A stretch of 44,082 nt of DNA from a virus, in the IMG/VR virus record IMGVR_UViG_3300027851_000049, positions 1 to 44,082 of that record. One strand, given 5' to 3'. Under the pieces are notes generated by a model. That model worked only from the letters and a program-made list of their open reading frames with translations, was not told where the DNA came from and did not search any database. Below, one piece after another: positions 1 through 44,082 of the stretch; positions within the stretch are counted from its first letter, which is position 1, and each line of letters begins with the position of its first letter. Made by a program: the position numbers and the translations under genes.

Positions 1-164
1 GCGCCAAGGAATGCTTCCGCACCTTTTGGATTGCACCTTCCATACATCCGGACAGCTTTCATAATCTTGCCCCATGCCTCGTCTGCCGTTTGGGAAACCT
101 GCATCGTTGCCACCGCTATGCGGCTACGGATCTGGGCAATGGATGGCGGGAAGTCTGCCGTCAT
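1..164. repeat. Terminal direct repeat, left copy
   Basis: Positions 1-164 match 43919-44082 except for base 38 (t here, a at 43956). The helicase-loader-like gene reads in frame through the joined copies, so this is best explained as the overlap of a circular assembly. A true terminal repeat is possible but the mismatch and mid-gene position argue against it. Confidence 0.93.
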
Positions 165-11200: not shown

Positions 11201-14200
11201 GCTTCTGAATCGTCAGTAAAGAATTCCTGATACAGCATTTCCAGCGGTACATTCATTTGTATACCGCTCATACCGTTCCGGTATCCAGTTTTCAGATCTC
11301 GAACAGATCCGGTCAGCGTGGTGGTGAAGATGTAACTGCCCTCGGTCATGATGAATTTCTTTTCATCAATCATCCGTCCAGCATTCGCATTGCTAGTCAC
11401 AAGATACAGCTGGGCATAACCCTCGTTGGATACAAGTCCATTGGCTGCACGAATAGCAGCGATGTGACTCATGACTCGCTCTCTCGTATCCGGATTGGTT
11501 ACACGTTCAGACAGTGGCCGGAATCCCTTGCTGGGTTTGATGGCTTTGTCTTCGGGAGTCTGAGCCATAAGCTCTGATGGATTGAAGCGAATCGGTTCTT
11601 CGCGTTTGGCTTCGCTTGGATCCCAGAAATGATCCTTGTTTATGGTCTCAGGCTGGACCGCTTTAGATGCAGGTGCAACAGGCCAAGACACTGCCACTGC
11701 CGCATGGAATCGAGGAGACATATGAAGATGCTCAATATAGATCTCGTTTGCACGAGCCTGTTTCAATAGGTCATCGCTATAAGGCGGCTTAAATGTTCCG
11801 AATTGCTTTGTGACTTCCTTGAGCTTAATGTTTTCTGTTATGCCATCGCGATACTTATTCAGCCGTTCAGCAATCTTTTCCAGACTATCCTTGCGATTGT
11901 ATTGATAGACAAACTTGCCAGTAGCCACATCGTAAAGCCGGATAGTCCCGTCTTCCTTTGCGCCAGTCGTGAACACATCGAGCCATTCAGCACCCGGGAT
12001 GATTACTGTATGCCCGGGTACTTCGGTAAAGCTGCCGCGCTTGCCACCAATATGAAACAACTGCCGTCTTGGGTTGGCAGGATCCTTGAACATTTTCATT
12101 AGTCGCGCATGCTGTGCCTTGGTTAGCTTGCCTGGGAATCCTGGGAAATGGTTAGCCTGTGTTGCCACATCGTTCGGGGTCTTGGCCACAACTTCCAGAG
12201 CTTCTTCTGCAACGGCCTCTGGGACGATCTCAGGCGCTTTGAAGATGGAGCCATCCGGTTCTACTACAATCTCGGCCGACGCTTCGGTGACTGCTTCCAG
12301 AGCCGTTTCCTGAGCAACGACAGGCATTGCACTACGCTTGACTATGCGCTTGGCTGCAAATCCTCCGACCATGTTTGTTCCAGCGAATGCGTTGTCTCCC
12401 TCAGCGCGAATGAAGCTGGCATACGTGTCAGCTATTGGGGCATCCGGAGCGACGTTGTTTGCTTTCGACCACGCGACAAAATTATTCAGGATGACAGTCG
12501 CGTTCTGTTTGCTGGTAGCGCCGGACATCTTTTTGAATTCATCGATGGCATCGGCTGACTGCGTCTCAGTAATGGCAACGGGTTCTGGGCTGGCCACGAT
12601 GTTTTGTAACGTCTTAGAGGCCATCTTCTTTCCGCGAACCACATTGTTTACACGAGCAGATGGAGTAGCAGTCGGAGCAGCAGGAGCCGGAGTAGTGACA
12701 GCAGCAGCGATGGGCTGGGCCGGAGCCTTGAGAGCATCGGCTATCATGGTCTGGTACTCGATGACACCCATACCCATAGGACGAGCAGCTGGCAAGCTGG
12801 CAGCAGCTGATGTATCTCCATAGAATGACCGAGGTTTTGGAGTGTATGTCTCACCCTGAGAGATGGCATTGTACTTGGCTACAACTTCTCGGCCCATCTG
12901 CATTGGATCCACGAGCATTTCCTTGGCCAGATAGATTACTCGATCTGCTTGATCGTATGTGATCTTGTTCAATGGCGTGTTGAAAATCTCTCTGGAAACT
13001 GTATCCAGATATTGCCTTTGGTCGAGCTGGATTGGCAAGTCCTTGCCTAGTGCTGTACGAGCGCGGCGATCAGATTGTATCTTAGACATCGCAGTAGAGC
13101 TAAGGCCAAACAAAGCGCCAGCAATAGCGCCCACCATGCCGTTGTATCCGAAGTCTTTGTAGTTGAACTTGCTGTCTTTCAGAAAGTCAGTGATTGTGCC
13201 ATCCGGATTATCAAACGAATAGTCAACGGCAAGCTGGAGCGGATACTCAAGCATCTCTTCCGCGCCCTCGCCTCCGGCTGCTTTTATCAACGGCCAGATA
13301 ACATCGACAACACGGGGGAATGCCTTGTATCCAGGACGCAGGATCTCTCTTCCAATAAACTTCTTGGCCTGAGAGTTGATCGCTTGGGTAGCCAGCTTCA
13401 TTGGCTTGTCGAACACATCAAAGAAACTCTCGATCTTAGTTGAAATCGCAGAACTGATGGCCGCTTTGGAATAGATGCGAATGAAATCGTTGGCAGTGAC
13501 CGGACCACCCTGATCTAACTGCTCGTTTACCTGCATGCCAAGGCCAGCTACAAACATGGGACCGGAGAATTTACCCATGCCCTTTGATAGATACGTATAC
13601 GGCATCGATCCAACCACATCGCCAGCCAGTCGGGATGCAGATCCCATATTGTCCCTGTTGTTATCGACATAGTTGCCCTGTATATAGTCCTGCGCTTTTG
13701 TTCTCAGCGCATTGGCAAATCCCTCTTCATTCGCAGTCGGGGCGTATTGATCGATGACATCTTTCTTGATCCCTGAGATAGTATCTAGTAAACCTTTACC
13801 GTTAATCTTTACATTGGAGTTGATCGTGCTTCGGATATCGCTAATCGCACGTTCGGATATGCCATCTGTGAGCTGATCCAGTCCGGACCTAGCAAGACCT
13901 TTGTATATGTCTTTAACCCGCTTCATGGTTAAGCCGGAAACATCGGTATCGCCTTGGCCTGTAGCCATGAGCAGCCCAGAAGTGATAGCTTTCAGAGCAG
14001 AATCCTTGGCCGTGTAAAGTCCACGAGCAATGCCTGCCGTTGTATTGGCAAGATTACCGGCGATATACTCGGCGCTTTCCTTGGAGAAAAAGCCTTTCGG
14101 ATCTGGAACAGACGCTTCAAAGGCTTTCAGTCCCGCGTAATCGGCAGCATACTGTGATGTTCCACCAGATCCAGAGATCGGAACAGACTTAGACTTCAAC

Positions 14201-14397
14201 GACTGAGCTGCAGCGCGCTGTTCAGCAGCAGACTCGATCCGCTCCATCTGCTTGGCCTTGAGCGATGTCCGATCTGGTTCGTCTGACCTAAGGTATGCAG
14301 GAAGTTCTGGCGCGATCCCACTGTTGTAAGTGTTCCAGCCTTTAGACTTGGCTGACTGTCTATTGGTCGGAGTTGTCTGCCATTTCTTAGTAGCCAT
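5251..14397 (-). CDS. 3048-residue giant virion-associated protein (large polyvalent / internal virion class)
   Basis: One uninterrupted frame of 9.1 kb, a fifth of the genome. Layout: residues 1-470 helical with a Gly/Ala-rich hydrophobic stretch near 415-440 (YNGMVGAIAGALFGLS). From about 530 to 1790, globular blocks are joined by Ala/Pro/Thr/Val-rich linkers carrying basic clusters (KRIVKR, RGKRGKVK, GKRSKA, ARKRNKK). Residues 1800-2500 are highly charged and helical. Residues 2500-2990 hold membrane-like segments (PFINTPVALIYESY near 2666, AALGFLLGMLGF near 2723) that resemble the terminal helical domain of phage large polyvalent proteins. It follows the LysM internal-protein gene, so it is probably packed in the capsid and ejected with the DNA. 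No catalytic site is certain to me. An AAAGGGG site precedes the ATG. Confidence 0.8.
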   Translation of the reverse strand: MATKKWQTTPTNRQSAKSKGWNTYNSGIAPELPAYLRSDEPDRTSLKAKQMERIESAAEQRAAAQSLKSKSVPISGSGGTSQYAADYAGLKAFEASVPDPKGFFSKESAEYIAGNLANTTAGIARGLYTAKDSALKAITSGLLMATGQGDTDVSGLTMKRVKDIYKGLARSGLDQLTDGISERAISDIRSTINSNVKINGKGLLDTISGIKKDVIDQYAPTANEEGFANALRTKAQDYIQGNYVDNNRDNMGSASRLAGDVVGSMPYTYLSKGMGKFSGPMFVAGLGMQVNEQLDQGGPVTANDFIRIYSKAAISSAISTKIESFFDVFDKPMKLATQAINSQAKKFIGREILRPGYKAFPRVVDVIWPLIKAAGGEGAEEMLEYPLQLAVDYSFDNPDGTITDFLKDSKFNYKDFGYNGMVGAIAGALFGLSSTAMSKIQSDRRARTALGKDLPIQLDQRQYLDTVSREIFNTPLNKITYDQADRVIYLAKEMLVDPMQMGREVVAKYNAISQGETYTPKPRSFYGDTSAAASLPAARPMGMGVIEYQTMIADALKAPAQPIAAAVTTPAPAAPTATPSARVNNVVRGKKMASKTLQNIVASPEPVAITETQSADAIDEFKKMSGATSKQNATVILNNFVAWSKANNVAPDAPIADTYASFIRAEGDNAFAGTNMVGGFAAKRIVKRSAMPVVAQETALEAVTEASAEIVVEPDGSIFKAPEIVPEAVAEEALEVVAKTPNDVATQANHFPGFPGKLTKAQHARLMKMFKDPANPRRQLFHIGGKRGSFTEVPGHTVIIPGAEWLDVFTTGAKEDGTIRLYDVATGKFVYQYNRKDSLEKIAERLNKYRDGITENIKLKEVTKQFGTFKPPYSDDLLKQARANEIYIEHLHMSPRFHAAVAVSWPVAPASKAVQPETINKDHFWDPSEAKREEPIRFNPSELMAQTPEDKAIKPSKGFRPLSERVTNPDTRERVMSHIAAIRAANGLVSNEGYAQLYLVTSNANAGRMIDEKKFIMTEGSYIFTTTLTGSVRDLKTGYRNGMSGIQMNVPLEMLYQEFFTDDSEATFRLHVGKGRDMELTNNWTGTPESKIFPRAADLELIANKGYINREIMDINDNLSEIQVKVIDQMAESMYNDAVELVHWNVSYMKQSELDAMQDKADDQANQIAIDFLTHDDEWVKNHYALQTNEKLRKYFRRITRHEWDTKTGKSLPRFNRNYRKDATAVGETALSTTMATSAAAAVRGKRGKVKPVWMPIVNGIERINSKLNKKKHFFEILDGDRFKKINGYREDVVSWLDTFVAMNRADYPFLYESTTGIPLAPLAPNVDAITLAESLEARKEQLLVEIDTAQLTKPSPVLMAYRKVIRDADKVKDDDAKYKAKENKTKFVAENDKRKYGPRASQSQTPASIPAETTVPTREVVDITPAVQVRRIPKAIAATSTPAVEAPTTVSDANVPASETNVVAAPAVRKANKAAIPVTPEARARQIQNLLAIYSKRLTLTPFEKDKVRELTNELADITIASVTAPETRVAPAENKEHRIFNMMGAQGILFPVAVNPTDAELDWLEDRQDDDSYAGIQISAMDLPNGGRDEVGDNYEEAVRLRRVVDDAGNVYAWSIGDALHDDIVKYLERNKGAEFTNYKASLIPPAPVAQDQVQPAEEIPVIAQPAEEKPAETATQAPTKSKGKRSKAVAVSTPVATSATPAEPVATPDVAPAITPAIEAAPTPAVAEVLAKEPEAPPIVARKRNKKAAPASEVKTVEQIVPVKAEPEGIAPTPPVLSDAASKGKRSLQARGQDLIELTRQDKTTAADKIAAALEADPELLSAMMAKVNTIEKVQTAQAKGVQTMLALADPDMEYTSIDGTILPTYDEAGVVTEGFALEYIKSKMNGNKGKNQYHRFLLNFVDALGSSRSDEKMKRLLDGLKIEDIFYEVATDVEALRKAKDKYGYGNESTKERVKGAAWKNRRALYDKYTKTPGMILTKDDFLGLAMYAEELADTDDPNSILRADSIIRMLADTMTEAGQMIQGAKQVYDLLYPMRRAQRLIAEADKGMTPDQQGKIDTLANDTMTKLGALRKGAATDAVKDVQDRVDKYKKPGKPRKTSEVLRDMIIDDYKRIMSAGGNVELEERMTRMAINQMFKVYRQNIDPKLYQRIPGDTVWEGLEYILLNRGDMQREFIEARDQVAKEFREKYPNDTALNSFFDSLNNDLLSDNFKDAIIAETFKDSGVKLMDMAQKYFFNGGESIKQFIAMVDEKLDGKLSENPLEKKVFQDLITDRFSVRMEERKEQARRTIRKIDAQAPARKLARKKTDPTERTIELLSKATFQDSLMLDNVNRIWAERLGVRMLNSDMVADIYATMKLIQKEPDDEIKNQMYEDMVYRVGQTLEGTAYEKFLAWRRASMLFNPLSWIKNGVSNLATMPYYYMMDRVETALYRMGEPFFGAVNPADRIAPLSGWVSAKKAPPHIKDLVEKHANRGKIKIFVARTAKYSISRMLNAEKRIFGSSKLEKILKIPLHMMSEGHPFERSRDEDKAAADKWYTKTFGWLGDSYMFSRHFQAAFRNKLLTLGVTDAMTKDPAQKVHLDALVTEALADAFDVATIRTYRKMNAVSKKLQGIKTGMTTAADRVDAENHPTRAALAKIGATTFNIAFDIAAPFINTPVALIYESYKFSPANIVSGLIKLGVFKGQMLLGKETKPDQLTNAYNSLAQGLVGTVGQAALGFLLGMLGFIDTFPPDEEKEKVAWAMEGRQAWSLHFGNKSYSVNWLQPIASSLMFGAELAKQYFDPDYGDDEDGDAWTQAFNAMTTGTLLTSIQRALSPNGSYEESGLTDIISNLIGSASSQSVATSFSRMAGIFDPYERDIYTGGLLENMYNKFLTNVPYLNTKNDVKVDVWGMKARKVEDRGALGAVGRAAFAFLLPFNPEHGYKDPVSMEVLRLYHDVESDPGRALPPVASADIKAFDIDNEEFGNYGPVNLTLSGEEHAEYMMWTGQLSKRFVEETMALPEYKSMADEDKIKAIAGAYTLAKKLATEKMVFPRLREYIKAGGR

Positions 14398-20050: not shown

Positions 20051-21541
20051 TTAAATAGCAATAGCTCCAGACATTAAAATCACTTGACTTGTGTTGGGGT
20101 GCCCTCCGTCAAGCGTGGGAGTTACCCAGATTTCATAAGTTGACGTTGCGTCCGGGGTTACATCAAAGTTTGCCAACACATACAAATCTTTGCCGTTGTT
20201 GTAGTCATTGTGTCTAATCGCCCTTGTTTGCCCCGCCCCTGTGCCGCTAATGATTTTAAGTTGACCAATCAAATCTAGGGTTGTAGCCGCATAGGGCAAA
20301 GCGGCATCCCTGATGTAATTGAGACCAGCCGAATCCACAGTACCGCTAAACAATGCTTCTGACGATACCGCCCATTTGCCAGTCGCGGCATCTTCCACGG
20401 TAGCGGCTGTGTCAAAAACACCGTCAAGCGTTCCTCCGCTTTGGGATATCGCACCAGTTGCCGCTTGATCTTTCAGCCATGCGTTAATTCCAAGTCGTGT
20501 TGCTTCGATTGCTGACACCGTTTGATTTTCAAGCGTGAGCCATGTGTCCGTTGATGTGGTTTTGGGCACAAGTGTACAATGATATACTCTTAACCCCTTT
20601 GCTTTAAAATACTTCCATATTTTAATCAGATTTGCTTTTACCGTTGCTAATGATCCGCCATCGTCAATGTCGTTGATCCCATAATTACATATCACATCGG
20701 TGTGGTTTTTGATAAGATCGACCCTGTTATAAAGGTTTGCAAAAAACTGAACAGAACTTTCTCCGGGGGATGATATTTTTGTACAACCTATCCCTTGTGC
20801 ATAAAAATAGCGCGCGGCAAAACCGTTGTTCCCTGTACTCGCCTGTGCGTTGTCACCAGTTCCGTCGATGATACTGTCTCCACTAATTAAAAATGATCTG
20901 TAGTCACTATAAATTACACCAAAAATCCCCCTTGGACCGTAGACCGAACCCGATGGGGTGTCCGTAACCGTACCCGTGTCTGTTTTGTCTGAACCGTAAT
21001 CCAACCCATCGCTAACGCCGCTAAGGTTGACCATTGCTTTCAGTTCTATGTTGCCAGCGATATACCCACCGGAGCCAGCATCAAAATAAGTGCGGATATA
21101 TACAACGTCCGTAGGAACAACCATGCACCCAACCGGATCACTGTAAACGACTGCACCCATCCCTATTTCAATTGTCCTTTTTCCGTTAAAATATACGGGT
21201 ATAATTGACCCGTTAATTTCAACGGATGCCTTAACATTTATTACGTTTGTGTTGGCTATCAAAACACCGTTTGAATAGTGGTTGCTATACGCAATAACCA
21301 TATCTTGAAATGCGTTTTTGTGCTGTATGTGGAACCTCGTTGTTCCGGTCTGATTATCATTGCTTCGTGCGTTAAACACGGGTGTTGTGTCTCTAAGCGC
21401 AACTGGAAAAGCACCGACCTGCTTTGATCCGATCTCCTGAAACGCCCCGTTGATCGTATCCGTCGCATAATACCCGCCCGCATCCGGTATCGGAGATTCT
21501 ATGTTAAATGGAAAATTTATTATTCCGCGTCCAAGCGCCAT
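20051..21541 (-). CDS. Tail spike with SGNH/GDSL hydrolase domain
   Basis: A 496-residue protein; the ATG at 21541 is chosen because GGGGTGA lies 6 nt upstream (the frame also has a GTG three codons earlier). A beta-rich N-terminal half (1-195) precedes an SGNH hydrolase domain. The nucleophile motif is GDSI at 221-224, GESS follows near 260, GIND is at 288-291, and the catalytic DGGH is at 478-481 (D478, H481). Such spikes remove acetyl or other ester groups from host surface glycans. By eye, codons here end in A or T more often than in neighbouring genes, suggesting recent acquisition, as is common for receptor-binding proteins. Confidence 0.86.
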   Translation of the reverse strand: MALGRGIINFPFNIESPIPDAGGYYATDTINGAFQEIGSKQVGAFPVALRDTTPVFNARSNDNQTGTTRFHIQHKNAFQDMVIAYSNHYSNGVLIANTNVINVKASVEINGSIIPVYFNGKRTIEIGMGAVVYSDPVGCMVVPTDVVYIRTYFDAGSGGYIAGNIELKAMVNLSGVSDGLDYGSDKTDTGTVTDTPSGSVYGPRGIFGVIYSDYRSFLISGDSIIDGTGDNAQASTGNNGFAARYFYAQGIGCTKISSPGESSVQFFANLYNRVDLIKNHTDVICNYGINDIDDGGSLATVKANLIKIWKYFKAKGLRVYHCTLVPKTTSTDTWLTLENQTVSAIEATRLGINAWLKDQAATGAISQSGGTLDGVFDTAATVEDAATGKWAVSSEALFSGTVDSAGLNYIRDAALPYAATTLDLIGQLKIISGTGAGQTRAIRHNDYNNGKDLYVLANFDVTPDATSTYEIWVTPTLDGGHPNTSQVILMSGAIAI

Positions 21542-30649: not shown

Positions 30650-30862
30650 CTATCCACGCCTTACACAGTGCCCGTCTTGAAACGCAGCACATTCATCAAG
30701 GATGCAACTACCAACAGTTTCCACTATCGTTATAGTTCTCCCATAACAATACGTTGCATGCTTTTCAACATTATCTTCCGTGTTTATATAATTCCACTGG
30801 TTCGTCATCGGGGGTCGTGGCTCTTCAATTTGTATTTGAGTTATCAAGTACGGACACTTCAT
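30650..30862 (-). CDS. Small Cys-rich protein preceding terL
   Basis: A 70-residue protein with five Cys (MKCPYLI; ATYCYGR; GSCILDECAAFQDGHCVRRG). The last three Cys plus Cys3 could bind zinc. GGAGGG lies 8 nt before the ATG. It is the first gene of the main late block and adjoins terL by 0 bp. It is not a recognisable small terminase. Function unknown. Confidence 0.75.
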   Translation of the reverse strand: MKCPYLITQIQIEEPRPPMTNQWNYINTEDNVEKHATYCYGRTITIVETVGSCILDECAAFQDGHCVRRG

Positions 30863-30928
30863 CTGCTATTCCCTCCATCAGCGTTATACTTACTTCATCC
30901 ACAATAGCACACACAGGAGGAGAACATA
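30863..30928. promoter_or_regulatory. Divergent intergenic region (late operon / ssb cassette)
   Basis: 66 bp between divergent starts at 30862 (-) and 30929 (+), so both promoters must lie here or overlap the genes. Rightward, TATACT is present near 30887 without a clear -35. Leftward, TATAAC lacks a good -35. Weak -35 boxes would fit activator-dependent phage promoters. Confidence 0.5.
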
Positions 30929-31495
30929 ATGCCACTAGCAAAGAAACCCAAGCCACGTGTCTCTAAAACAAAGACTGCCGCAGGCAAAAAAATGAATTTC
31001 CCAGACCCCAACTACCTCGTCATAGGCGGCCGCATCTGCTCAGAAATCGTCTACGATCCCGCACGCGAAAAGAAAGATAAGACCGGTGGTACCCATGCAC
31101 CCTATGTCCGCTTCACTATCGTCTGTAATGCCCAAGCCTACTCACGCCGCCCCACCGGTTTCTTCTTCTGCGAAGCATGGGGCAACACCGCCGAAGTATT
31201 CATGGCCAAAGGTTATACCCGCCGCTGTGGTATCTGGATCATCGGTAAGCTAAAGTCCTTCCCCATTAAAGGCGCTAAATCCATGTACACCGCCTTCTCC
31301 ATAGAAATCCTCCAGGAAACCCTAAAGTCCCTCCCAGCCCTACGTGGAGACGAAGCAGACCAAGAAGAAGCAGAACCCATCATCGACCTAGCAGACCTCA
31401 ATAACGTCTCCCAGGAGACCATAGATAGCATAAGTAACTTTATACCTATGGAAGACGATGTTCCTAGAGAACGCCTTTTGAAAAATAAAAAATAG
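30929..31495 (+). CDS. ssb: Single-stranded DNA-binding protein
   Basis: A 188-residue protein with an OB-fold over about residues 25-130: NYLVIGGRICSEIVYD, YVRFTIVCNAQ, TGFFFCEAWGNTAEVFMAKG, and GIWIIGKLKSFPI. This is the beta1-beta4 pattern of bacterial SSB with the conserved FxxV/CxxWG core. A basic N-terminal tail (AKKPKPRVSKTKTAAGKK) precedes it, an acidic segment (DEADQEEAEP) follows, and the end is basic rather than the usual acidic SSB tip. It coats ssDNA for replication and RecT annealing. Strong ribosome site AGGAGGAG. It is placed alone on the plus strand between the terminase genes. Confidence 0.85.
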   Translation: MPLAKKPKPRVSKTKTAAGKKMNFPDPNYLVIGGRICSEIVYDPAREKKDKTGGTHAPYVRFTIVCNAQAYSRRPTGFFFCEAWGNTAEVFMAKGYTRRCGIWIIGKLKSFPIKGAKSMYTAFSIEILQETLKSLPALRGDEADQEEAEPIIDLADLNNVSQETIDSISNFIPMEDDVPRERLLKNKK

Positions 31496-31697
31496 GGAGA
31501 GGGTAATACACCCCAGGGGGGGATGACGGCTGAATGCGAGGTAGCCCCCGTCTCTCGTTACGAACACGTAATAGCAAGCATACGTACAGGATTACACGCA
31601 GATCAGAGGGACGTTGCGGAAAATGACCATGCATGTTAGCTTAACGGCATAAGTCGTCACGGCAGAGACACCGGACGCAAGACCACGGAGGCACATC
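31496..31697 (+). promoter_or_regulatory. 202-bp non-coding leader with inverted repeats
   Basis: No convincing gene. A GTTACG-aaca-CGTAAT hairpin lies near 31555-31575, and a GGGGG/CCCCC pair is interrupted by GGCT/AGCC near 31516-31549. A promoter-like pair TTGCGG - 17 bp - TAGCTT with an upstream TG (about 31613-31642) might drive the 149-residue gene. The region 31630-31690 superficially resembles a tRNA D-arm but no complete tRNA folds. Confidence 0.4.
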
Positions 31698-32147
31698 ATG
31701 GCACGGAAAAACGCAAGCACAGTCACAGTCGCAACACCCGTCGTAGCAACACCTGCACCCGCATTCAAAATGCCTGCGACCATGGAAGAATTCATGGCGA
31801 TGATGGCGATGTTCGCACCCGCAGCAGCAACACCCGTAGCGCCTGTTGTTAAGGCGGCAGTCGAAACCGTCAAGGTCAAAAAGCCTAAGGTGCTCACGCC
31901 TTATGGACTCGCCTGCGAGAAAGCCGTTTCCGGCGCAAAGACGTTTGCCGAAGCGGTCAAGGCGCTTCACGCAGCCATTCCGGAGAGCGCGAAATACGAC
32001 AAGGTGCTCGTCGGGAATCACCTCGCGTTGGCTTGCAAGGCGCAAGGCGAGAAGAACGCGAAGTTCAAGGCTCCGGTCGGAATGCCGGCAGTCATGTCCC
32101 ATGCCGATGTCAAGGCGTACAAGCTCGCCAAGGCATCCAAGGCGTAA
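31698..32147 (+). CDS. Ala/Lys/Pro-rich basic protein (histone-like composition)
   Basis: A 149-residue protein. Residues 1-60 are Ala/Pro/Val/Thr low complexity with a Met-rich patch (MEEFMAMMAMFAP). Residues 65-149 are a compact, basic, helical part (KKPKVLTPYGLACEKAV; FAEAVKALHAAIPESAKYDK). GGAGG lies 6 nt before the ATG and a superb terminator follows, so it is likely abundant. C/G-rich codons resemble those of the capsid gene. Possibly a DNA-binding or virion protein; this is inference from composition. Confidence 0.78.
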   Translation: MARKNASTVTVATPVVATPAPAFKMPATMEEFMAMMAMFAPAAATPVAPVVKAAVETVKVKKPKVLTPYGLACEKAVSGAKTFAEAVKALHAAIPESAKYDKVLVGNHLALACKAQGEKNAKFKAPVGMPAVMSHADVKAYKLAKASKA

Positions 32148-32155
32148 GGCACACA

Positions 32156-32186
32156 GGGGAGGGGCTTCGGCTCCTCCCTTTTTTTT
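32156..32186 (+). terminator. Strong terminator after the basic protein
   Basis: 10-bp stem GGGGAGGGGC / GCTCCTCCCT capped by the stable TTCG tetraloop, followed by eight T. It starts 9 bp after the stop codon. Confidence 0.93.
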
Positions 32187-32226
32187 GCTCGTTACCAACA
32201 CATGCGAAACGCGAAAGGGGATTACC

Positions 32227-32349
32227 ATGAGAAAGTTTGACCGTCACCTAGGCACATACACGAAGTATCCAGCCGGAGCCGTTGCGGAATGGACACGCAA
32301 CGTACTCGGGCATTACAAACACATCACGAAAGCGAGGGCAAAGAAATGA
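32227..32349 (+). CDS. 40-residue basic protein
   Basis: MRKFDRHLGTYTKYPAGAVA..., ending ITKARAKK. An AAGGGGA ribosome site precedes the ATG; the stop overlaps the next start (ATGA). It follows a strong terminator, so it needs read-through or its own promoter. Function unknown. Confidence 0.72.
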   Translation: MRKFDRHLGTYTKYPAGAVAEWTRNVLGHYKHITKARAKK

Positions 32350-32510
32350 GCTTCGATCTCACGTATGTATGGGCGATACTCGCCTTGTTGATGCGGTACT
32401 GGTGGCTCTTTGCGATAGCACTTGTCACCATCGCGCTGGTCCTGCTCTTGCCTGACCCTGAACCCTCGCCTATCAAACGTGAATGTAGGAGGTATCGCCC
32501 TAGGCGCTGA
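32346..32510 (+). CDS. 54-residue single-pass membrane protein
   Basis: Starts MSFDLTYVW with an ATGA overlap. One hydrophobic segment covers about residues 8-36 (AILALLMRYWWLFAIALVTI...), then a Pro-rich turn and a very basic tail (KRECRRYRPRR), predicting a cytoplasmic C-terminus. Holin-like in size, but its place far from the lysis genes leaves its role open. Confidence 0.7.
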   Translation: MSFDLTYVWAILALLMRYWWLFAIALVTIALVLLLPDPEPSPIKRECRRYRPRR

Positions 32511-32537
32511 CCGTCATCGCCTATATCGCATTGACTT

Positions 32538-32571
32538 AGCCGGCTCTCGCAAGGGAACCGGCTATTTTTTT
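32538..32571 (+). terminator. Terminator closing the plus-strand ssb cassette
   Basis: Stem AGCCGG / CCGGCT extended by an inner imperfect stem around a GCAA loop, followed by ATTTTTTT. It ends 2 bp before the stop of the converging small terminase gene. Read in the minus direction it lacks a T-tract, so it acts only rightwards. Confidence 0.87.
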
Positions 32572-32573
32572 GC

Positions 32574-33083
32574 TCATTTGCCATCGCCTATCTCGCCTTG
32601 CGATACTTCGTAATTCGCACTGAGATCAACGTCCTTGCCGTTGACTGTGAGCTTGAGCATCATCACGTTGCCCGATGATAGCTTCGCATTATCATTGTAC
32701 TTGTCATCGTTATGCGACATCGCGAATATGCGTAGCAAGTCCGAGTCCTTTGCGTTGTACGATAGCAAGCCATCCTCAAGCATCTTAACACGAAGCTCAC
32801 TTATCGCATTCACGCATGCCTTGAACAGCTCATTCTGCTCGATCCATATGTATCCCTGCATAGGCGAAACGCCTACGGACACACAGCTATCAGCCATTGT
32901 TAGCCCGTTCTCCATTGCGTACAAGACTTTCTCCATCGCCCTATCGACACGTTGCAAATGCAACGCAGGTAATTTTAGCTTCACGTACTCTATAACCAAC
33001 GCCTTGGCACGATCAGGTATGTCTATATTGCGAGAGTCAGGGTCTTGTGTAGGCTTATCGAATTTTTTCTTTTGTCTAGGCAT
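32574..33083 (-). CDS. terS: Putative terminase small subunit
   Basis: A 169-residue protein from the ATG at 33083 (AAAGGAGA upstream); a longer hydrophobic upstream frame is rejected because it lacks a ribosome site and would pass through the promoter region. Basic start (MPRQKKKFDKPTQD), then a helical part with an HTH-like segment (MENGLTMADSCVSVGVSPMQ, followed by GYIWIEQNELFKACV). That order resembles small-terminase DNA-binding domains. The C-terminus is beta-rich and acidic (LKLTVNGKDVDLSANYEVS). It is separated from terL by the plus-strand ssb cassette. The call is plausible, not certain. Confidence 0.62.
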   Translation of the reverse strand: MPRQKKKFDKPTQDPDSRNIDIPDRAKALVIEYVKLKLPALHLQRVDRAMEKVLYAMENGLTMADSCVSVGVSPMQGYIWIEQNELFKACVNAISELRVKMLEDGLLSYNAKDSDLLRIFAMSHNDDKYNDNAKLSSGNVMMLKLTVNGKDVDLSANYEVSQGEIGDGK

Positions 33084-38156: not shown

Positions 38157-38611
38157 ACGTAGCAGATGCAGTCAATGTGGTCAGGCTTATGGTGAAGTCA
38201 GTGTATCCGACGAACCCTCGCGAAGATATGGCTGGGTATACCGAGTCGGAGAATACCAAGGATACCCTATACGATGTGGAGCAGGCGCTCTTGCGTAAGT
38301 GTCTGATCGAGGACGAGGGCAAGTGTCGTGCATTCGTTGGGTTGGATAGCGAAGAACCTAACGTGTGCCTCATTGAGTACAAAGATTTCAGCTCGATGCT
38401 GACAGCGTTTGCTATGCAGTTGCATCGTTCTAAGCCGATCATTACAGACTTCCAATTCGAGGAAGACGGGCGATGGATCGAGGTCGTGCATGATATCGTC
38501 ATGCCAACGAGTTGTCTGTACACTGGCGTGATCCTGTTCTACGCAGGGCATACACACAATGGCATCATCGGGCACAGAGAATGGTTCGGCAAGGAAGAGG
38601 CAAAGCGATGA
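38153..38611 (+). CDS. 152-residue operon protein upstream of dockerin 1
   Basis: Alpha/beta protein (MNVADAVNVVRLMVKSVYPT; DVEQALLRKCLIEDEGKCRA; FSSMLTAFAMQLHRSKPI). No known motif. ATGA overlaps join it to the genes on both sides, so it is co-translated with the dockerin protein and may be its functional partner. Confidence 0.76.
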   Translation: MNVADAVNVVRLMVKSVYPTNPREDMAGYTESENTKDTLYDVEQALLRKCLIEDEGKCRAFVGLDSEEPNVCLIEYKDFSSMLTAFAMQLHRSKPIITDFQFEEDGRWIEVVHDIVMPTSCLYTGVILFYAGHTHNGIIGHREWFGKEEAKR

Positions 38612-38880
38612 GTTTCAAAGAAGCCATTGTTCCAATGCTGATTGTTGCGTTAATTGTTATGATGGCCTACTTCTTCTTGAATGATCCGGCCTTGGCAACG
38701 GGAGACGCGAACAAGGATGGCCGTATCAATGCTATCGATTTGACCATGATGAAGCGGCACATTATCGGGATCTACGACCTATCGCAGTGGCAGATTTTTC
38801 GATGTGACATGAATGGGAATGGAAGAGTTGACGAGATGGACTTGGAGACGGTCACAAACGTCATCCTTGGCAGGAATTGA
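38608..38880 (+). CDS. Exported type I dockerin protein 1
   Basis: A 90-residue protein. Residues 1-4 MSFK, hydrophobic core about 6-23 (AIVPMLIVALIVMMAYFF), then LNDPALA ending at 30: a signal peptide with an A-x-A site, or a membrane anchor. Residues 32-88 are two dockerin repeats. Loop 1 has D33, N35, D37, N41 and D44 (GDANKDGRINAID); loop 2 has D67, N69, N71, D75 and D78 (CDMNGNGRVDEMD). Each is followed by an F-helix (LTMMKRHIIG; LETVTNVILG). Dockerins bind cohesins in cellulosomes with calcium. Nothing but export signal and dockerin is present. ATGA overlap with the 152-residue gene. Confidence 0.9.
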   Translation: MSFKEAIVPMLIVALIVMMAYFFLNDPALATGDANKDGRINAIDLTMMKRHIIGIYDLSQWQIFRCDMNGNGRVDEMDLETVTNVILGRN

Positions 38881-40100: not shown

Positions 40101-40113
40101 TTTTAAGGCAAAG

Positions 40114-40153
40114 AAAAAGGGGCAGTAGCCGTTGTGGTTACTGCCCCTTTTTT
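40114..40153. terminator. Bidirectional terminator between converging operons
   Basis: Stem AAAAAGGGGCAGTA + GCC / GGT + TACTGCCCCTTTTT, 17 bp with a 5-nt loop (GTTGT), with T-runs on both strands. It ends the rightward operon (stop at 40100) and the leftward early operon (RusA stop at 40169). Confidence 0.95.
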
Positions 40154-40168
40154 TTGTTCTTCTCGCGA

Positions 40169-40843
40169 TCAGGTTGGCGCTTGCACCCACTCGTATATGA
40201 ACACTTCGGTTCGTGGGTTTGCCTTGTCGTAGTCAACGTATGATCCATCATGCCGTGTCACGATGGAACACTTGTCATCTGCGATAACTCCGATCGACTT
40301 GAGTATGTCATCCGTTGCGGATATCAGGTTGTTCAGGTCTACCAGTCTTCGTGCGTCCATGTAATAGATGGCTGTCACACATAGCGATCTGGTCAACGGC
40401 AGCTTTAGCACGGGTGTCTGACGGAACACTGTCTTGCCACACTTCTTGATGTCCTTGAGTTGCTCCTTGTTCGCCGCGCTTTGCATGATGAATCTTGTGC
40501 CAATGATCTGACCGCACTTTGTACACGTTCCCTTACGATCCTTGATGCCGATCATCTGGCTGTTCTTCTGTGTGCGAGGCGGGGTAGGGAACACGAGCGA
40601 CACGAGCAGTCTGCCTTTCTGTCCAGTCACCGTTGGTTGTTGCATCAGGTGGGCATGGTAGAAGTTCGCCGCCTCGATGAAGAAGTTTACCCATGCGTAT
40701 GGCAGGTCCGGCGTTACTACTGTGCCATCGGCTGCTACTGCGTAGGTAGCTGCTGTCAGGCTGGGTGGTATGCGTCCATCGCTGTCATACCGTTGCCGTC
40801 GCGAGATCGGGAACATCAGTTCCTGTGGCTTGAGCAGATCCAT
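40169..40843 (-). CDS. rusA: RusA-like Holliday junction resolvase with zinc-knuckle insertion
   Basis: A 224-residue protein. The C-terminal half fits RusA: AIYYMDARRLVDLNNLISAT, DDILKSIGVIADDK and RTEVFIYEW, with the Asp residues of D-LNN and the DD pair as metal ligands. An insertion (about residues 105-140) carries CTKCGQII and KKCGK, possibly zinc-binding, absent from the basic fold. The N-terminal 60 residues are extra. It resolves branched DNA before packaging. GGAG lies 7 nt before the ATG at 40843. Last gene of the early operon. Confidence 0.82.
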   Translation of the reverse strand: MDLLKPQELMFPISRRQRYDSDGRIPPSLTAATYAVAADGTVVTPDLPYAWVNFFIEAANFYHAHLMQQPTVTGQKGRLLVSLVFPTPPRTQKNSQMIGIKDRKGTCTKCGQIIGTRFIMQSAANKEQLKDIKKCGKTVFRQTPVLKLPLTRSLCVTAIYYMDARRLVDLNNLISATDDILKSIGVIADDKCSIVTRHDGSYVDYDKANPRTEVFIYEWVQAPT

Positions 40844-41078
40844 CGGCTGTCTCCTTTGTGATTTCGATTACGCATAGCTGACAGTTCGCCAGCTTCCTTA
40901 GCATGTGTCGGATCGAGTCGGAATCCAGATCGATCATGAGGCTGTCCTTGAATGTGCTGGACCGGATCTCTATTCGCAAGGCATGGGTTCTCCCGTCGTG
41001 TCTCACCGTCATTACCATGCTGTGCTTGCTTATGTTCTCAAAGATCTGGGCCAGTGCTTCTTCACACTCACGATCCAT
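40785..41078 (-). CDS. 97-residue early operon protein
   Basis: MDRECEEALAQIFENISKHS..., alpha/beta with TVRHDGRTHALRIEIRSSTF and a Thr/Ala-rich tail. It overlaps RusA by 59 bp in another frame, longer than usual here; the real stop or start of one gene may differ. GAGGT precedes the ATG. Unknown function. Confidence 0.7.
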   Translation of the reverse strand: MDRECEEALAQIFENISKHSMVMTVRHDGRTHALRIEIRSSTFKDSLMIDLDSDSIRHMLRKLANCQLCVIEITKETADGSAQATGTDVPDLATATV

Positions 41079-41079
41079 C

Positions 41080-41364
41080 TCATACCTCCACGTTTGTGAT
41101 ATGGAATTCTCCTGCTTGGTTGGACACTCTGACTGCCGTTGTTACCATCGTCTCGATCAGGTCACGTTCAGTCTCCGGATCCAGTACGCCATCGCAAGAG
41201 TTCATCCGATATTCCAGAACGACTGTAGCTATCAGCATGGCGCAGGCTGTTGCCACATCCTCAAAGCAAGTGGCGTTCTCAATGTATAGGTTCATCGCAC
41301 GCTGGCCCTTTGCGTTTTTTACTAGCTCAGCCTTGAATTTCAGGTCATCAGGTATTGGTGTCAT
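41080..41364 (-). CDS. 94-residue early operon protein
   Basis: MTPIPDDLKFKAELVKNAKG..., with a central helix (ATCFEDVATACAMLIATVVL) and ERDLIETMVTTAVRVSNQAG near the end. It overlaps the upstream gene by 17 bp. No family recognised. Confidence 0.74.
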   Translation of the reverse strand: MTPIPDDLKFKAELVKNAKGQRAMNLYIENATCFEDVATACAMLIATVVLEYRMNSCDGVLDPETERDLIETMVTTAVRVSNQAGEFHITNVEV

Positions 41365-42058
41365 CGTTCTCCCCCATCAGTTCTTCCAGCGGGAATTCTT
41401 TCAGGACATCGCCTGGGCCTCCTACCCATTCTCCTTTAGCTTCGGTTGCATACTCCGGCTGCTTCTCCCCGTCCTTGTGGATCTCTTCGATGCTTAGTTG
41501 CGGATCTACCAGCAGCATGTGCCCGTTCTCGTCCCGCTTCACCATGAAGTTGTTGACCTTGCCCTTGCTGTTGATAGGCTTGTTCGCGATGTTGAGCGAC
41601 ACTGTGTGTTCCACCATGATCTCCGGAGAGAACATGTCTTTCTTGATCGTCAACTTGAGCGGGATCGTCACCTTGTTATCATCGTTTGCCAGATCAATGC
41701 CCCTCCGGATGCACATGTCCAGATCAAACATGATGTTCGCAAACCAAGGGTGAGTGATGCTGATCTCTTGGCTGGGTTCTATTGCGTCTTTCTCCTGCGT
41801 CTTGCTGTCTCCGGTCATCTGTCGAAACGCTTCATCGCTCAAGATTCCAAACGAATCGCATTCGTACACGATCCAATCGGCAATCTCTGCAAGCAGCTCT
41901 TCGTCCAAGTGGCAATACAGTTCTTCCCCGTTGTCGTCCTCTTCTGCGTTGAATTCTTTGGCGAATGTTCCCAGCCACTCGTTGATTTTTTCGACCGACT
42001 CGCTTCCCATGTACTGCATTGCGTCCACTTCGTAGGGTTTCGTCATAAACTTAGTCAT
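41348..42058 (-). CDS. 236-residue early protein with PGDYG-like N-terminus
   Basis: The N-terminal 90 residues (KPYEVDAMQYMGSESVEKIN, EIADWIVYECDSFGILSDEA, FRQMTG) resemble the small phage domain that reads K-x-V-x-A-x-Q-W ... GDWI. The remaining 145 residues are beta-rich (TIPLKLTIKKDMFSPEIMVE; NNFMVKRDENGHMLLVDPQL) with an acidic tail and look like a separate domain. GAGGAG lies 7 nt before the ATG. Function unknown. Confidence 0.74.
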   Translation of the reverse strand: MTKFMTKPYEVDAMQYMGSESVEKINEWLGTFAKEFNAEEDDNGEELYCHLDEELLAEIADWIVYECDSFGILSDEAFRQMTGDSKTQEKDAIEPSQEISITHPWFANIMFDLDMCIRRGIDLANDDNKVTIPLKLTIKKDMFSPEIMVEHTVSLNIANKPINSKGKVNNFMVKRDENGHMLLVDPQLSIEEIHKDGEKQPEYATEAKGEWVGGPGDVLKEFPLEELMGENDDTNT

Positions 42059-42308
42059 TGTCGTACTCCTCTTCTTCCTCTGCGTCTTGCGCTCCTCTGA
42101 AATCCACTTGTTCGTCCTTACTTGTTGAGAATGCGATGGCTGCTACCACATGGAATGCCTTGCCGCAATTAAAACATTCGCGCCAGGCCCCGTCAAAAAG
42201 AATCTCCAGTATCTCCACCTGCTCTACTGTCGTGACAAACTGCCTCGCCTTGCAGTATGGGCATACGATCTCCTCTGTCTCGGTTACGATCGGTTCTTCA
42301 TCTGTCAT
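42051..42308 (-). CDS. Zinc-ribbon protein with acidic tail
   Basis: An 85-residue protein with C-x2-C knuckles CPYC and CFNC about 28 residues apart, and a tail of nine consecutive or near-consecutive acidic residues (AEEEEEYDND). ATGA overlap with dockerin 2 upstream. Possibly a transcription or nuclease modulator; unknown. Confidence 0.77.
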   Translation of the reverse strand: MTDEEPIVTETEEIVCPYCKARQFVTTVEQVEILEILFDGAWRECFNCGKAFHVVAAIAFSTSKDEQVDFRGAQDAEEEEEYDND

Positions 42309-42586
42309 CTCAACATCCCCTCTACCAGAACATCAATGTCCATCTGGTCTATGCGGTGATTGTGGTTCATGTCTCCGATTCTTATTTGCGTACTATCCAG
42401 ATCATACATGCCAATGAGATGCCGCTTCATCATGGTCAGGTCCACTGCATTGACTCGGCCATCACGATTGACATCGCCTCTTGGTGTGTTGCGTTCATCA
42501 ACGACTAGGCAAACCACCCTTGCGATTAGAGAAACAAGCAGCAGCAGCAGTCCCACAATCATAAACAGTTCTCCCCGCCTTATCAT
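42305..42586 (-). CDS. Membrane-anchored type I dockerin protein 2
   Basis: A 93-residue protein from the ATG at 42586 (GAGGTGA 8 nt upstream, ATGA overlap). Residues 1-4 MIRR (positive inside), hydrophobic 7-29 (LFMIVGLLLLLVSLIARVVC), then ERNTPR and two dockerin repeats (37-93). Loop 1 has D38, N40, D42, N46 and D49; loop 2 has D72, N74, N76, D80 and D83, with His77 replacing the usual Gly. No A-x-A site and no proper lipobox, so it should stay in the membrane with the dockerin outside. It shares DLTMMKRH-x-IG-x-YDL with dockerin 1. It lies in the replication operon between zinc-ribbon genes. Confidence 0.9.
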   Translation of the reverse strand: MIRRGELFMIVGLLLLLVSLIARVVCLVVDERNTPRGDVNRDGRVNAVDLTMMKRHLIGMYDLDSTQIRIGDMNHNHRIDQMDIDVLVEGMLR

Positions 42587-42837
42587 TGTGCGCTCACCTC
42601 GTCCGTCCATCGCTTGATAGCATTGCCAGTCTCACTGCTTTTCTTCACTGGTATCCACACTCCAACGAGAGTGAGCGGACACCATGCCGGCGTTACCTTT
42701 GTGACTGTCACCCTTCGGATCTCTTTGTACTCTGCTTCGCATACTGCAGTGCGATATTCTCGGGACCCCGCCTTGTAGAAGTAGCAGTCTACGCATCGAT
42801 GTGGCTTGTCTTTCTGGCCGAAGATTATCTTGCTCAT
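42583..42837 (-). CDS. 84-residue Cys-rich protein
   Basis: Start taken at MSKIIFG (42837) by ATGA overlap; in-frame ATGs at 42843 and 42876 are less favoured. Cys pattern C-x2-C (CVDC), then C (AVCEAE) and C (AWCPL), suitable for one zinc. The sequence DCYFYKAGS followed by WCPL is common in small Firmicutes phage proteins. Function unknown. Confidence 0.76.
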   Translation of the reverse strand: MSKIIFGQKDKPHRCVDCYFYKAGSREYRTAVCEAEYKEIRRVTVTKVTPAWCPLTLVGVWIPVKKSSETGNAIKRWTDEVSAQ

Positions 42838-43022
42838 GTGCATTCCCCCAGTTCCTTTTTTATTTCTACAGAACAACCCGTGCAGACAAGGTATGGTGTA
42901 ACGTCTTCTGTGTGTCCTAGCGCATCGAAACTTGCTTGCTGAGCCATCTTTAACCCAGTGTCATAATCGCGTTCTTCCCATGAAAATTCTTTTCCGCAAA
43001 CGTGACAACGAAAATTGCTCAT
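42834..43022 (-). CDS. 62-residue zinc-ribbon protein
   Basis: MSNFRCHVCGKEFSW with C6-x2-C9, and VCTGC (C-x2-C) near residue 47. Classic two-knuckle ribbon with a helical insert (GLKMAQQASFDALGH). ATGA overlaps on both sides. Confidence 0.78.
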   Translation of the reverse strand: MSNFRCHVCGKEFSWEERDYDTGLKMAQQASFDALGHTEDVTPYLVCTGCSVEIKKELGECT

Positions 43023-43285
43023 ACTTTCTCCCTTTCCTCATATCTTCCACATGCTGGCCATTTCAATCGAACATCCGTTGCTGGGCTATGGCTATCTTTC
43101 CATTGTTTGCATTTGTAATACCCACGTCCTCGATACCCATTGTTCGTCAGGTTATTACATGATTTGCAAGTCTTTCCGGACGGTCCAGATCCGTACATTT
43201 CGATTGGCTTTTTCAGCTTTAGCGGAGACTCTGGTTCCGGAGGTTCGTACTCGTATCCTGGGAAGAAAGACTCTTGGTTCTTCAT
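43019..43285 (-). CDS. 88-residue zinc-binding protein
   Basis: Pro/Glu-rich start (GYEYEPPEPESPLKLKKPIE) then KTCKSCNNL, YYKCKQW and DVRLKWPACGRYE: four Cys as C-x2-C ... C ... C, a pattern seen in uncharacterised phage proteins near replication genes. The start is uncertain: ATG at 43285, or a TTG at 43297 that overlaps the previous stop as TTGA. Confidence 0.74.
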   Translation of the reverse strand: MKNQESFFPGYEYEPPEPESPLKLKKPIEMYGSGPSGKTCKSCNNLTNNGYRGRGYYKCKQWKDSHSPATDVRLKWPACGRYEEREKV

Positions 43286-43293
43286 TCCTAGTT

Positions 43294-43524
43294 TCAATCC
43301 TCGCTCTCTGTCGTAAATTCCTCTCCTTGCTCTGCAGACCCCTCTGGGAGACGGTTTCTTGCGTTCGATGGTACGGAGTAATAATCCGCATCTCTCTCCT
43401 CATATCCCATGCGATAGCGCCACAGCGTGCAGGATCGGATCGTACATCTTTTTACCTCAGCCTCTTGGTTTCCAGTGCAGTCCATACACTTGAGTCTGAT
43501 CGCTCGTGCCCTGTTTAATCTCAT
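43294..43524 (-). CDS. 76-residue Cys-rich protein of KCMDC type
   Basis: RLKCMDCTGNQEAEVKRCTI followed by RSCTLWRYRMG: C-x2-C ... C-x4-C with a closing LWRYRxG. This signature recurs in small proteins of Gram-positive phages; their function is unknown. ATGA overlap with the 63-residue gene upstream. Confidence 0.8.
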   Translation of the reverse strand: MRLNRARAIRLKCMDCTGNQEAEVKRCTIRSCTLWRYRMGYEERDADYYSVPSNARNRLPEGSAEQGEEFTTESED

Positions 43525-43712
43525 GCCTTGCCTCCCTTTGTGAAAGCATCGTCGATCTCTTTCGCTATCATCTGTTCTCGCATAGCAATGATACGTTCGG
43601 CTAGAGTCTTGCTCCCGATCTCGCTAGCCAGCTTATCAAGACTTCGCTTTAGATCTTTTCTTGATATCTGTATTTCCCGAGACAGTGGATGTGTTAGCTT
43701 AACGATCCCCAT
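43521..43712 (-). CDS. 63-residue helical protein after the helicase loader
   Basis: MGIVKLTHPLSREIQISRKD..., a basic, two-helix protein (LKRSLDKLASEIGSKTLAER). It overlaps the loader gene by 14 bp, so it may be a partner in helicase loading; otherwise unknown. Confidence 0.74.
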   Translation of the reverse strand: MGIVKLTHPLSREIQISRKDLKRSLDKLASEIGSKTLAERIIAMREQMIAKEIDDAFTKGGKA

Positions 43713-44082
43713 TTGTGTCGTCTCCTATCTTCCCTTGCGTTTCAACAACGCCACCCAGCAATTCCTGCACATGTTGCGGGATCTGGAGCTTCTCTTTCTC
43801 TCGTGCTATCTGTGTGTTATAGGCTGTACGAAACTGTGCAAAGTAAGTGGACTCCTTATCCATGTCCAGTTCACAGAAGTATCGCCACTCGAATCCAGTC
43901 ACAACACCCCATGTGAATGCGCCAAGGAATGCTTCCGCACCTTTTGGATTGCACCATCCATACATCCGGACAGCTTTCATAATCTTGCCCCATGCCTCGT
44001 CTGCCGTTTGGGAAACCTGCATCGTTGCCACCGCTATGCGGCTACGGATCTGGGCAATGGATGGCGGGAAGTCTGCCGTCAT
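43699..44082 (-). CDS. G39P-like helicase loader, main part (continues at the left end)
   Basis: The frame is open to the right edge; in the circular genome it continues to the ATG at 323, adding 53 residues for a 180-residue total. Visible here: DFPPSIAQIRSRIAV, a helix with DEAWGKIMKAVRMYGW (Trp96 of the full protein), then an aromatic stretch and a Glu/Lys-rich C-terminal helix. The N-terminal domain plus PPxIAxI motif match G39P-like helicase loaders/inhibitors; the C-terminal half would contact the helicase. An ATG at 44082 is internal, not the real start. Confidence 0.75.
   Translation of the reverse strand: MTADFPPSIAQIRSRIAVATMQVSQTADEAWGKIMKAVRMYGWCNPKGAEAFLGAFTWGVVTGFEWRYFCELDMDKESTYFAQFRTAYNTQIAREKEKLQIPQHVQELLGGVVETQGKIGDDTNGDR
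43919..44082. repeat. Terminal direct repeat, right copy
   Basis: Identical to 1-164 except at 43956 (a; t at 38). The unique genome length is therefore 43918 bp if circular. Confidence 0.93.

Follow-up and report, generated by a model that had tools for sequence, protein, structure and literature searches.

Dockerins are the plugs by which enzymes are fixed to bacterial cellulosomes. Those of type I are usually met as modules of an enzyme or of a scaffoldin, and forms that keep a single binding face have been documented in Ruminococcus flavefaciens (PMC5429695, PMC5301203). VvAW1 gene 40 has merely been described as resembling a dockerin protein, and no other phage mini-dockerin was found in the literature searched. 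The DNA analysed here, called the window throughout, is the whole 44,082-nucleotide virus record IMGVR_UViG_3300027851_000049, in which an earlier note had proposed a single phage-encoded mini-dockerin, P0001 (gene g50). This protein is real; however, a second copy, P0002 (gene g62), had been overlooked. Each of the two consists of a 19-residue hydrophobic N-terminal segment, a short spacer and a dockerin, with no further part, and neither occurs in the usual dockerin context. They are dockerin domain proteins, not cellulosomal enzymes.

Translation of window positions 38608-38880 (+) gave MSFKEAIVPMLIVALIVMMAYFFLNDPALATGDANKDGRINAIDLTMMKRHIIGIYDLSQWQIFRCDMNGNGRVDEMDLETVTNVILGRN and confirmed both the coordinates and the calcium-loop residues that had been read from the letters alone. 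In the profile search that the earlier note had called for, residues 32-87 of P0001 matched PF00404 over profile positions 2-57 of 57 (E=2e-15, 57.1 bits), well over the curated cut-off of 22.9 bits, and generic EF-hand models scored below their own cut-offs. The second dockerin match in the record, at 42326-42478 (-), falls in a gene best read as 42305-42586 with the start MIRRGELF, and its product, P0002, matched the same profile with E=4e-12 and 46.5 bits. The calcium loops of P0002 are D38-N40-D42-N46-D49 and D72-N74-N76-D80-D83, and in both proteins the ligands stand at positions 1, 3, 5, 9 and 12 of both loops. A putative recognition pair, A42-I43, is present in loop 1 of P0001 and is followed by K49-R50. 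Since a degenerate pattern made of loop 1 and the start of the F-helix gave 2 matches in the window, the second of them in P0002, versus 0.00 expected in shuffles, the loop pattern of P0001 is not attributable to chance. Searches of PHROG returned no significant match for either protein, and PADLOC returned none for P0002.

At 38608-38611, an ATGA makes the start of P0001 overlap the stop of the upstream gene, and P0002 overlaps its adjoining gene through an ATGA at 42583-42586; overlaps of this type are what would be expected at both dockerin genes if they were coupled phage genes. Judged from the overlap, a Shine-Dalgarno-like motif and its position in a packed operon, P0001 looks like a genuine gene. 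The hydrophobic segment of P0001 has a Kyte-Doolittle mean of 2.70 over 19 aa. It had been suggested that cleavage at ALA 28-30 could release a free dockerin; the motif is indeed present, and free secretion may occur. Because of the 19-residue hydrophobic stretch, and because the AxA motif is confined to P0001 and missing from its paralogue, a protein that stays in the membrane is no less probable. P0002 looks like a protein of the signal anchor type, anchored rather than secreted.

An AlphaFold model of P0001 built with 38 sequences (mean pLDDT 89.2, pTM 0.64) contained helices at residues 3-24, 42-53, 60-66 and 76-87, with pLDDT values of 89-96 per 10-residue block from residue 31 onward. 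The 33 best PDB matches of this model were dockerins without exception, several of them solved in complexes with cohesins. The P0001 dockerin lay within an rmsd of 0.9 A of the Clostridium thermocellum dockerin 2ccl_B (TM-score by target 0.88) and 0.8 A of 1ohz_B (TM-score by target 0.93), and calmodulin-type EF-hands reached a probability of 0.12 or less. The leading Foldseek matches had a probability of 1.00; the best E-value was a modest 8e-3 because the domain is short. P0001 is hence predicted to have a dockerin fold, a result that agrees with the sequence result and is not independent of it, since the input alignment of the model contained bacterial dockerins. A generic EF-hand identity for P0001 was ruled out by the profile scores and the fold matches.

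The dockerins of P0001 and P0002 share 57% identity over 56 aa, and neither exceeded 44% identity over the whole domain with any of the 63 bacterial dockerins compared. In a tree of 34 dockerins they form a 98/98 clade as the closest relatives of each other, and they are the sole paralogue pair in the genome, the overlapping contig ends aside; a duplication within the phage lineage is therefore most likely. Between the two copies, repeat 1 (27 codons) retains 21/27 identical amino acids, with a pS of 0.89 (synonymous sites are saturated) and a dN of 0.14, and repeat 2 retains 11/29 with a dN of 0.76. The resulting identity gap (0.78 vs 0.38) exceeds that of all 630 bacterial dockerin pairs, a control limited by a set chosen for similarity to the query, by pairs that are not independent of one another and by short alignments. 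Of the five bacterial pairs with the widest gap, three are formed among the Oscillospiraceae/Clostridia dockerins L144, L156, L199 and L205, which have the motif [IV]NA[IV]DLT..K in common with the phage dockerins. Among the loci compared this motif was otherwise seen only in L166, L202 and L209, and all of its bacterial carriers are rumen or gut Oscillospiraceae, Ruminococcus or Clostridia.

The recognition residues are thus preserved in one repeat only, as in dockerins with a single binding mode, which is the mode predicted here. The asymmetry fits a single-faced dockerin that is maintained for one partner. Selection on one face after the duplication indicates that binding to one type of partner matters, for which a cohesin is the natural candidate. 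The recognition residues differ from those of the R. flavefaciens groups, and therefore the partner cannot be named.

The earlier reading, by which a phage encodes a type I dockerin that has an export segment in front and no enzyme attached, was borne out in a near-complete phage genome. Window positions 1-164 and 43919-44082 are identical at 163/164 positions (1 mismatch), and the 44,082-bp record is therefore close to a complete unit of ~43.9 kb, which is probably circularly closed or terminally redundant. The families encoded, namely an SU10-type portal and adaptor, Terminase_3, RecT, a Dp-1 type holin, an M23 peptidase and a GDSL esterase, point to a podovirus-like phage of a Firmicute. 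Both dockerin genes lie in convergent non-structural runs, apart from the structural and lysis genes, and the hairpin between the runs is probably a terminator shared by both (Table 1). A role as virion protein is unlikely, since neither dockerin copy is located in the structural gene run. Contamination or a chimeric contig was ruled out on the grounds that both genes overlap their neighbours in packed phage runs and that the contig ends overlap. No cohesin was found in the phage genome. Long-term lysogeny is not evident, as no integrase occurs among the families shown in the protein scans of the genome.

Table 1. Positions in the window of the two dockerin genes, their parts and the gene runs around them.
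Feature	Position	Strand	Basis
g50 / P0001, 90 aa, export/anchor segment and type I dockerin	38608..38880	+	translation, PF00404, gene context, model, PDB matches
P0001 hydrophobic segment, residues 6-24 (AIVPMLIVALIVMMAYFFL), predicted helix 3-24	38623..38679	+	hydropathy, model
P0001 possible signal peptidase I motif A28-L29-A30	38689..38697	+	sequence only
P0001 calcium loop 1, D33-N35-D37-N41-D44	38704..38739	+	sequence, PF00404
P0001 calcium loop 2, D67-N69-N71-D75-D78	38806..38841	+	sequence, PF00404
g62 / P0002, 93-aa paralogue, anchor segment and type I dockerin	42305..42586	-	PF00404, translation, gene context
P0002 hydrophobic segment, residues 10-28, after positively charged MIRR start	42503..42559	-	Kyte-Doolittle mean 2.91
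Packed run of small non-structural genes, with DUF932 gene, holding P0001	33476..40100	+	gene context, family scans
Packed small-gene run holding P0002, continuing from replication genes across the circular join	40169..43712	-	
Strong hairpin where the two convergent gene runs meet	40111..40155	.	folding z-score -6.3

Elsewhere in the window, the structural run encodes a 3048-aa protein (5251-14397, -) that had no PHROG match and is possibly a giant internal virion protein, and a GDSL-type esterase (20051-21541, -) whose nearest relatives are minor tail proteins of Gordonia phages (~33%). Between the terminase genes, ~1.7 kb (30860-32574) show a differing base skew; the best open reading frame on the opposite strand of this segment, 30929-31495 (+), which comes with a good Shine-Dalgarno, weakly matches a single-strand-binding protein (E=0.0018).

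Close viral relatives were not found with peptide patterns of P0001, P0002, the terminase or the capsid genes, and the loop-plus-helix DNA pattern was absent from the other viral contigs searched; some collections omit records close to the window, so sibling phages may exist unseen. An alignment search with the P0001/P0002 pair had a sole match, L008 (G001:C1:4803-5693), a viral tail-type protein of about 1800 aa with several consecutive dockerin matches. Dockerin-like matches were present in eight "phage" records, five of which were read; these five, all unverified faecal scaffolds, carry pieces of larger, apparently bacterial secreted proteins. A looser pattern brought up, among the matches listed, mostly dockerins inside large proteins. 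Two small viral-contig proteins (L070, 2845-3015; L300, 1303-1668) combine a membrane segment with a single dockerin-like loop and score below the Pfam cut-off. Among 80 virus records related via the DUF932 gene, three exceeded the cut-off, two through a larger protein with a dockerin at the contig edge and one through a half-dockerin in a fragment. The two edge proteins (L297 in G060 and L298 in G059) have the dockerin at their C-terminus, a hint at possible integration of relatives into hosts that carry dockerins. On bacterial chromosomes, L367 (G263:C2, 91 aa, PF00404 42 bits) and L368 (G371:C1, 118 aa) each encode a signal peptide and a near-bare dockerin. The view that no such phage system had been described stands for the literature searched, but the protein type itself is not unique to phages, being present on Oscillospirales/clostridial chromosomes.

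For the DUF932 protein, identity is 44-51% to its counterparts in Faecalibacterium phage Roos, in human gut scaffolds and in many virus records, and RecT shares, across half its length, ~40% identity with the RecT of Faecalibacterium phage Brigit; these phage genes point to hosts among the Oscillospirales/Clostridia. A search with the portal protein found nothing in 394 genomes from the order of Ruminococcus, and 391 genomes from the class of Acetivibrio gave five distant matches. Among the matches listed, the nearest dockerins belong mostly to clostridial genomes from gut, rumen or digester, with some Bacteroidales. The earlier note had made its proposal depend on a cohesin in a plausible host, and cohesins are present in 22/23 and 10/11 of the genomes with the nearest dockerins (32/34 overall). 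Because nearly all of these mostly clostridial genomes have cohesins, the host, though not proven, is probably a cohesin-bearing clostridium.

Whether P0001 and P0002 are exported to imitate dockerins and take up the cohesins of the host is, in our view, an even question. Each protein would be led into the Sec route by its N-terminal hydrophobic segment, and its dockerin would come to lie at the outer surface of the cytoplasmic membrane. There P0002 would probably remain tethered, and P0001 may do the same or be set free by cleavage at ALA 28-30. In the calcium-bound state, the dockerin would use the conserved face of its first repeat to bind a cohesin in the cellulosome-like scaffold of the host, and that P0001 and P0002 bind a host cohesin seems to us somewhat probable. 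Host cohesins would then be filled by a dockerin that brings no enzyme, and the most likely payoff would be an infected-cell envelope changed such that competing phages are excluded or progeny are kept from sticking to the scaffold. With one protein anchored and the other possibly released, the slightly different pair could reach over two different distances. Superinfection exclusion is the preferred payoff, since the exclusion proteins known so far are broadly similar membrane products (PMC4465916); the reasoning is by analogy, and we give this payoff rather low confidence. That the pair represents a new class of envelope proteins mimicking cellulosomal enzymes, in which tethered or released dockerins plug cohesins and so exclude rivals or free progeny, appears doubtful.

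Several observations weigh against these proposals. Anchored dockerins would sit near the membrane, beneath the wall, and surface cohesins may be beyond their reach; this is the main difficulty, and the dockerin may encounter no more than passing scaffoldins or cohesins that lie near the membrane. In loop 2 of P0002, position 6 is H77 in place of the usual Gly. None of the 80 records related via DUF932 carries a mini-dockerin, and the payoff is conjectural, as no relative of known function was found.

The position of the dockerin directly after a membrane segment, by which it would be held near the membrane, also suits a different explanation, in which the pair are calcium-binding membrane micro-proteins that have no cohesin partner and use the dockerin fold as a small, stable extracytoplasmic head that binds some protein of a phage or of the envelope; they might, for instance, be superinfection-exclusion proteins of the usual membrane type and act on an incoming phage. 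The exclusion proteins Ltp of TP-J34 and gp15 of HK97 (PMC4465916) are precedents, and the weak proteins of two other viral contigs, with a transmembrane segment and half a dockerin, would be in keeping with it. However, the fold is that of a dockerin and not of a generic EF-hand, and the half kept constant between the copies bears cohesin-type recognition residues; we regard this explanation as rather unlikely. The same anatomy, a bare dockerin with an export segment, would also follow if the proteins were decoys that disturb cellulosome assembly or retain scaffoldins in the envelope in the course of infection, thereby loosening the cell from the fibre for progeny spread or diverting resources. 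The high affinity of cohesin for dockerin (Ka about 10^7-10^8 M^-1 in R. flavefaciens; PMC5429695) would suit a decoy, but the sequence gives no reason to prefer it to exclusion and what the phage would gain from it in a single infection cycle is hard to see, which makes this account unlikely in our estimation.

The chromosomal genes for a signal peptide and a (nearly) bare dockerin raise the further prospect that an accessory gene was captured from such a host gene and works for the host cell or the cellulosome without acting against host or phage. Against this stand the scans that showed no integrase family, the ATGA overlaps of both genes with neighbours in phage runs, the probable origin of the pair within the phage lineage, and the distant similarity of the only host genes found; capture of this kind is accordingly the most improbable of the accounts weighed here. 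To return to the occupation of host cohesins, if it occurs, phages that infect fibre degraders would act on the cellulosome, the surface apparatus by which such bacteria are defined, through a direct, calcium-dependent and easily assayed contact that ties infection to plant-fibre digestion. Small natural cohesin ligands would then join a protein-engineering toolbox already in wide use. Thanks to the duplication and its one preserved face, this phage-cellulosome contact can be tested directly with two short genes.

Among known systems, a dockerin fold is shared by the phage proteins A0A8S5M688 and A0A8S5UCJ3 of BFVD and by L008; in these the domains belong to proteins of 211 to about 1800 aa, and not to small exported ones. 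Ltp of TP-J34 and gp15 of HK97, which block phage DNA entry, are small phage membrane proteins that resemble the pair by analogy only; they have no dockerin, and no sequence relation to P0001 and P0002 was found. The bare dockerins L367 and L368 combine a signal peptide and a dockerin in ~90-120 aa as the phage pair does, but they are chromosomal and only distantly similar to it. As in the single-binding-mode dockerins of R. flavefaciens (groups 1, 3 and 6; PMC5429695, PMC5301203), one repeat has a preserved face in the phage proteins, whose recognition residues are not exactly those of these groups, whose binding is predicted only, and which are phage-borne. With the type I dockerins of clostridial enzymes (PF00404; 1ohz, 2ccl, 4fl4), the phage proteins share calcium loops, F-helices, spacing and fold, as well as a first repeat that is NA[IV]DLT..KR-like; they differ in being encoded by a phage, in having no enzyme or scaffoldin attached, in their asymmetric repeats and in the hydrophobic segment that directly precedes the domain.
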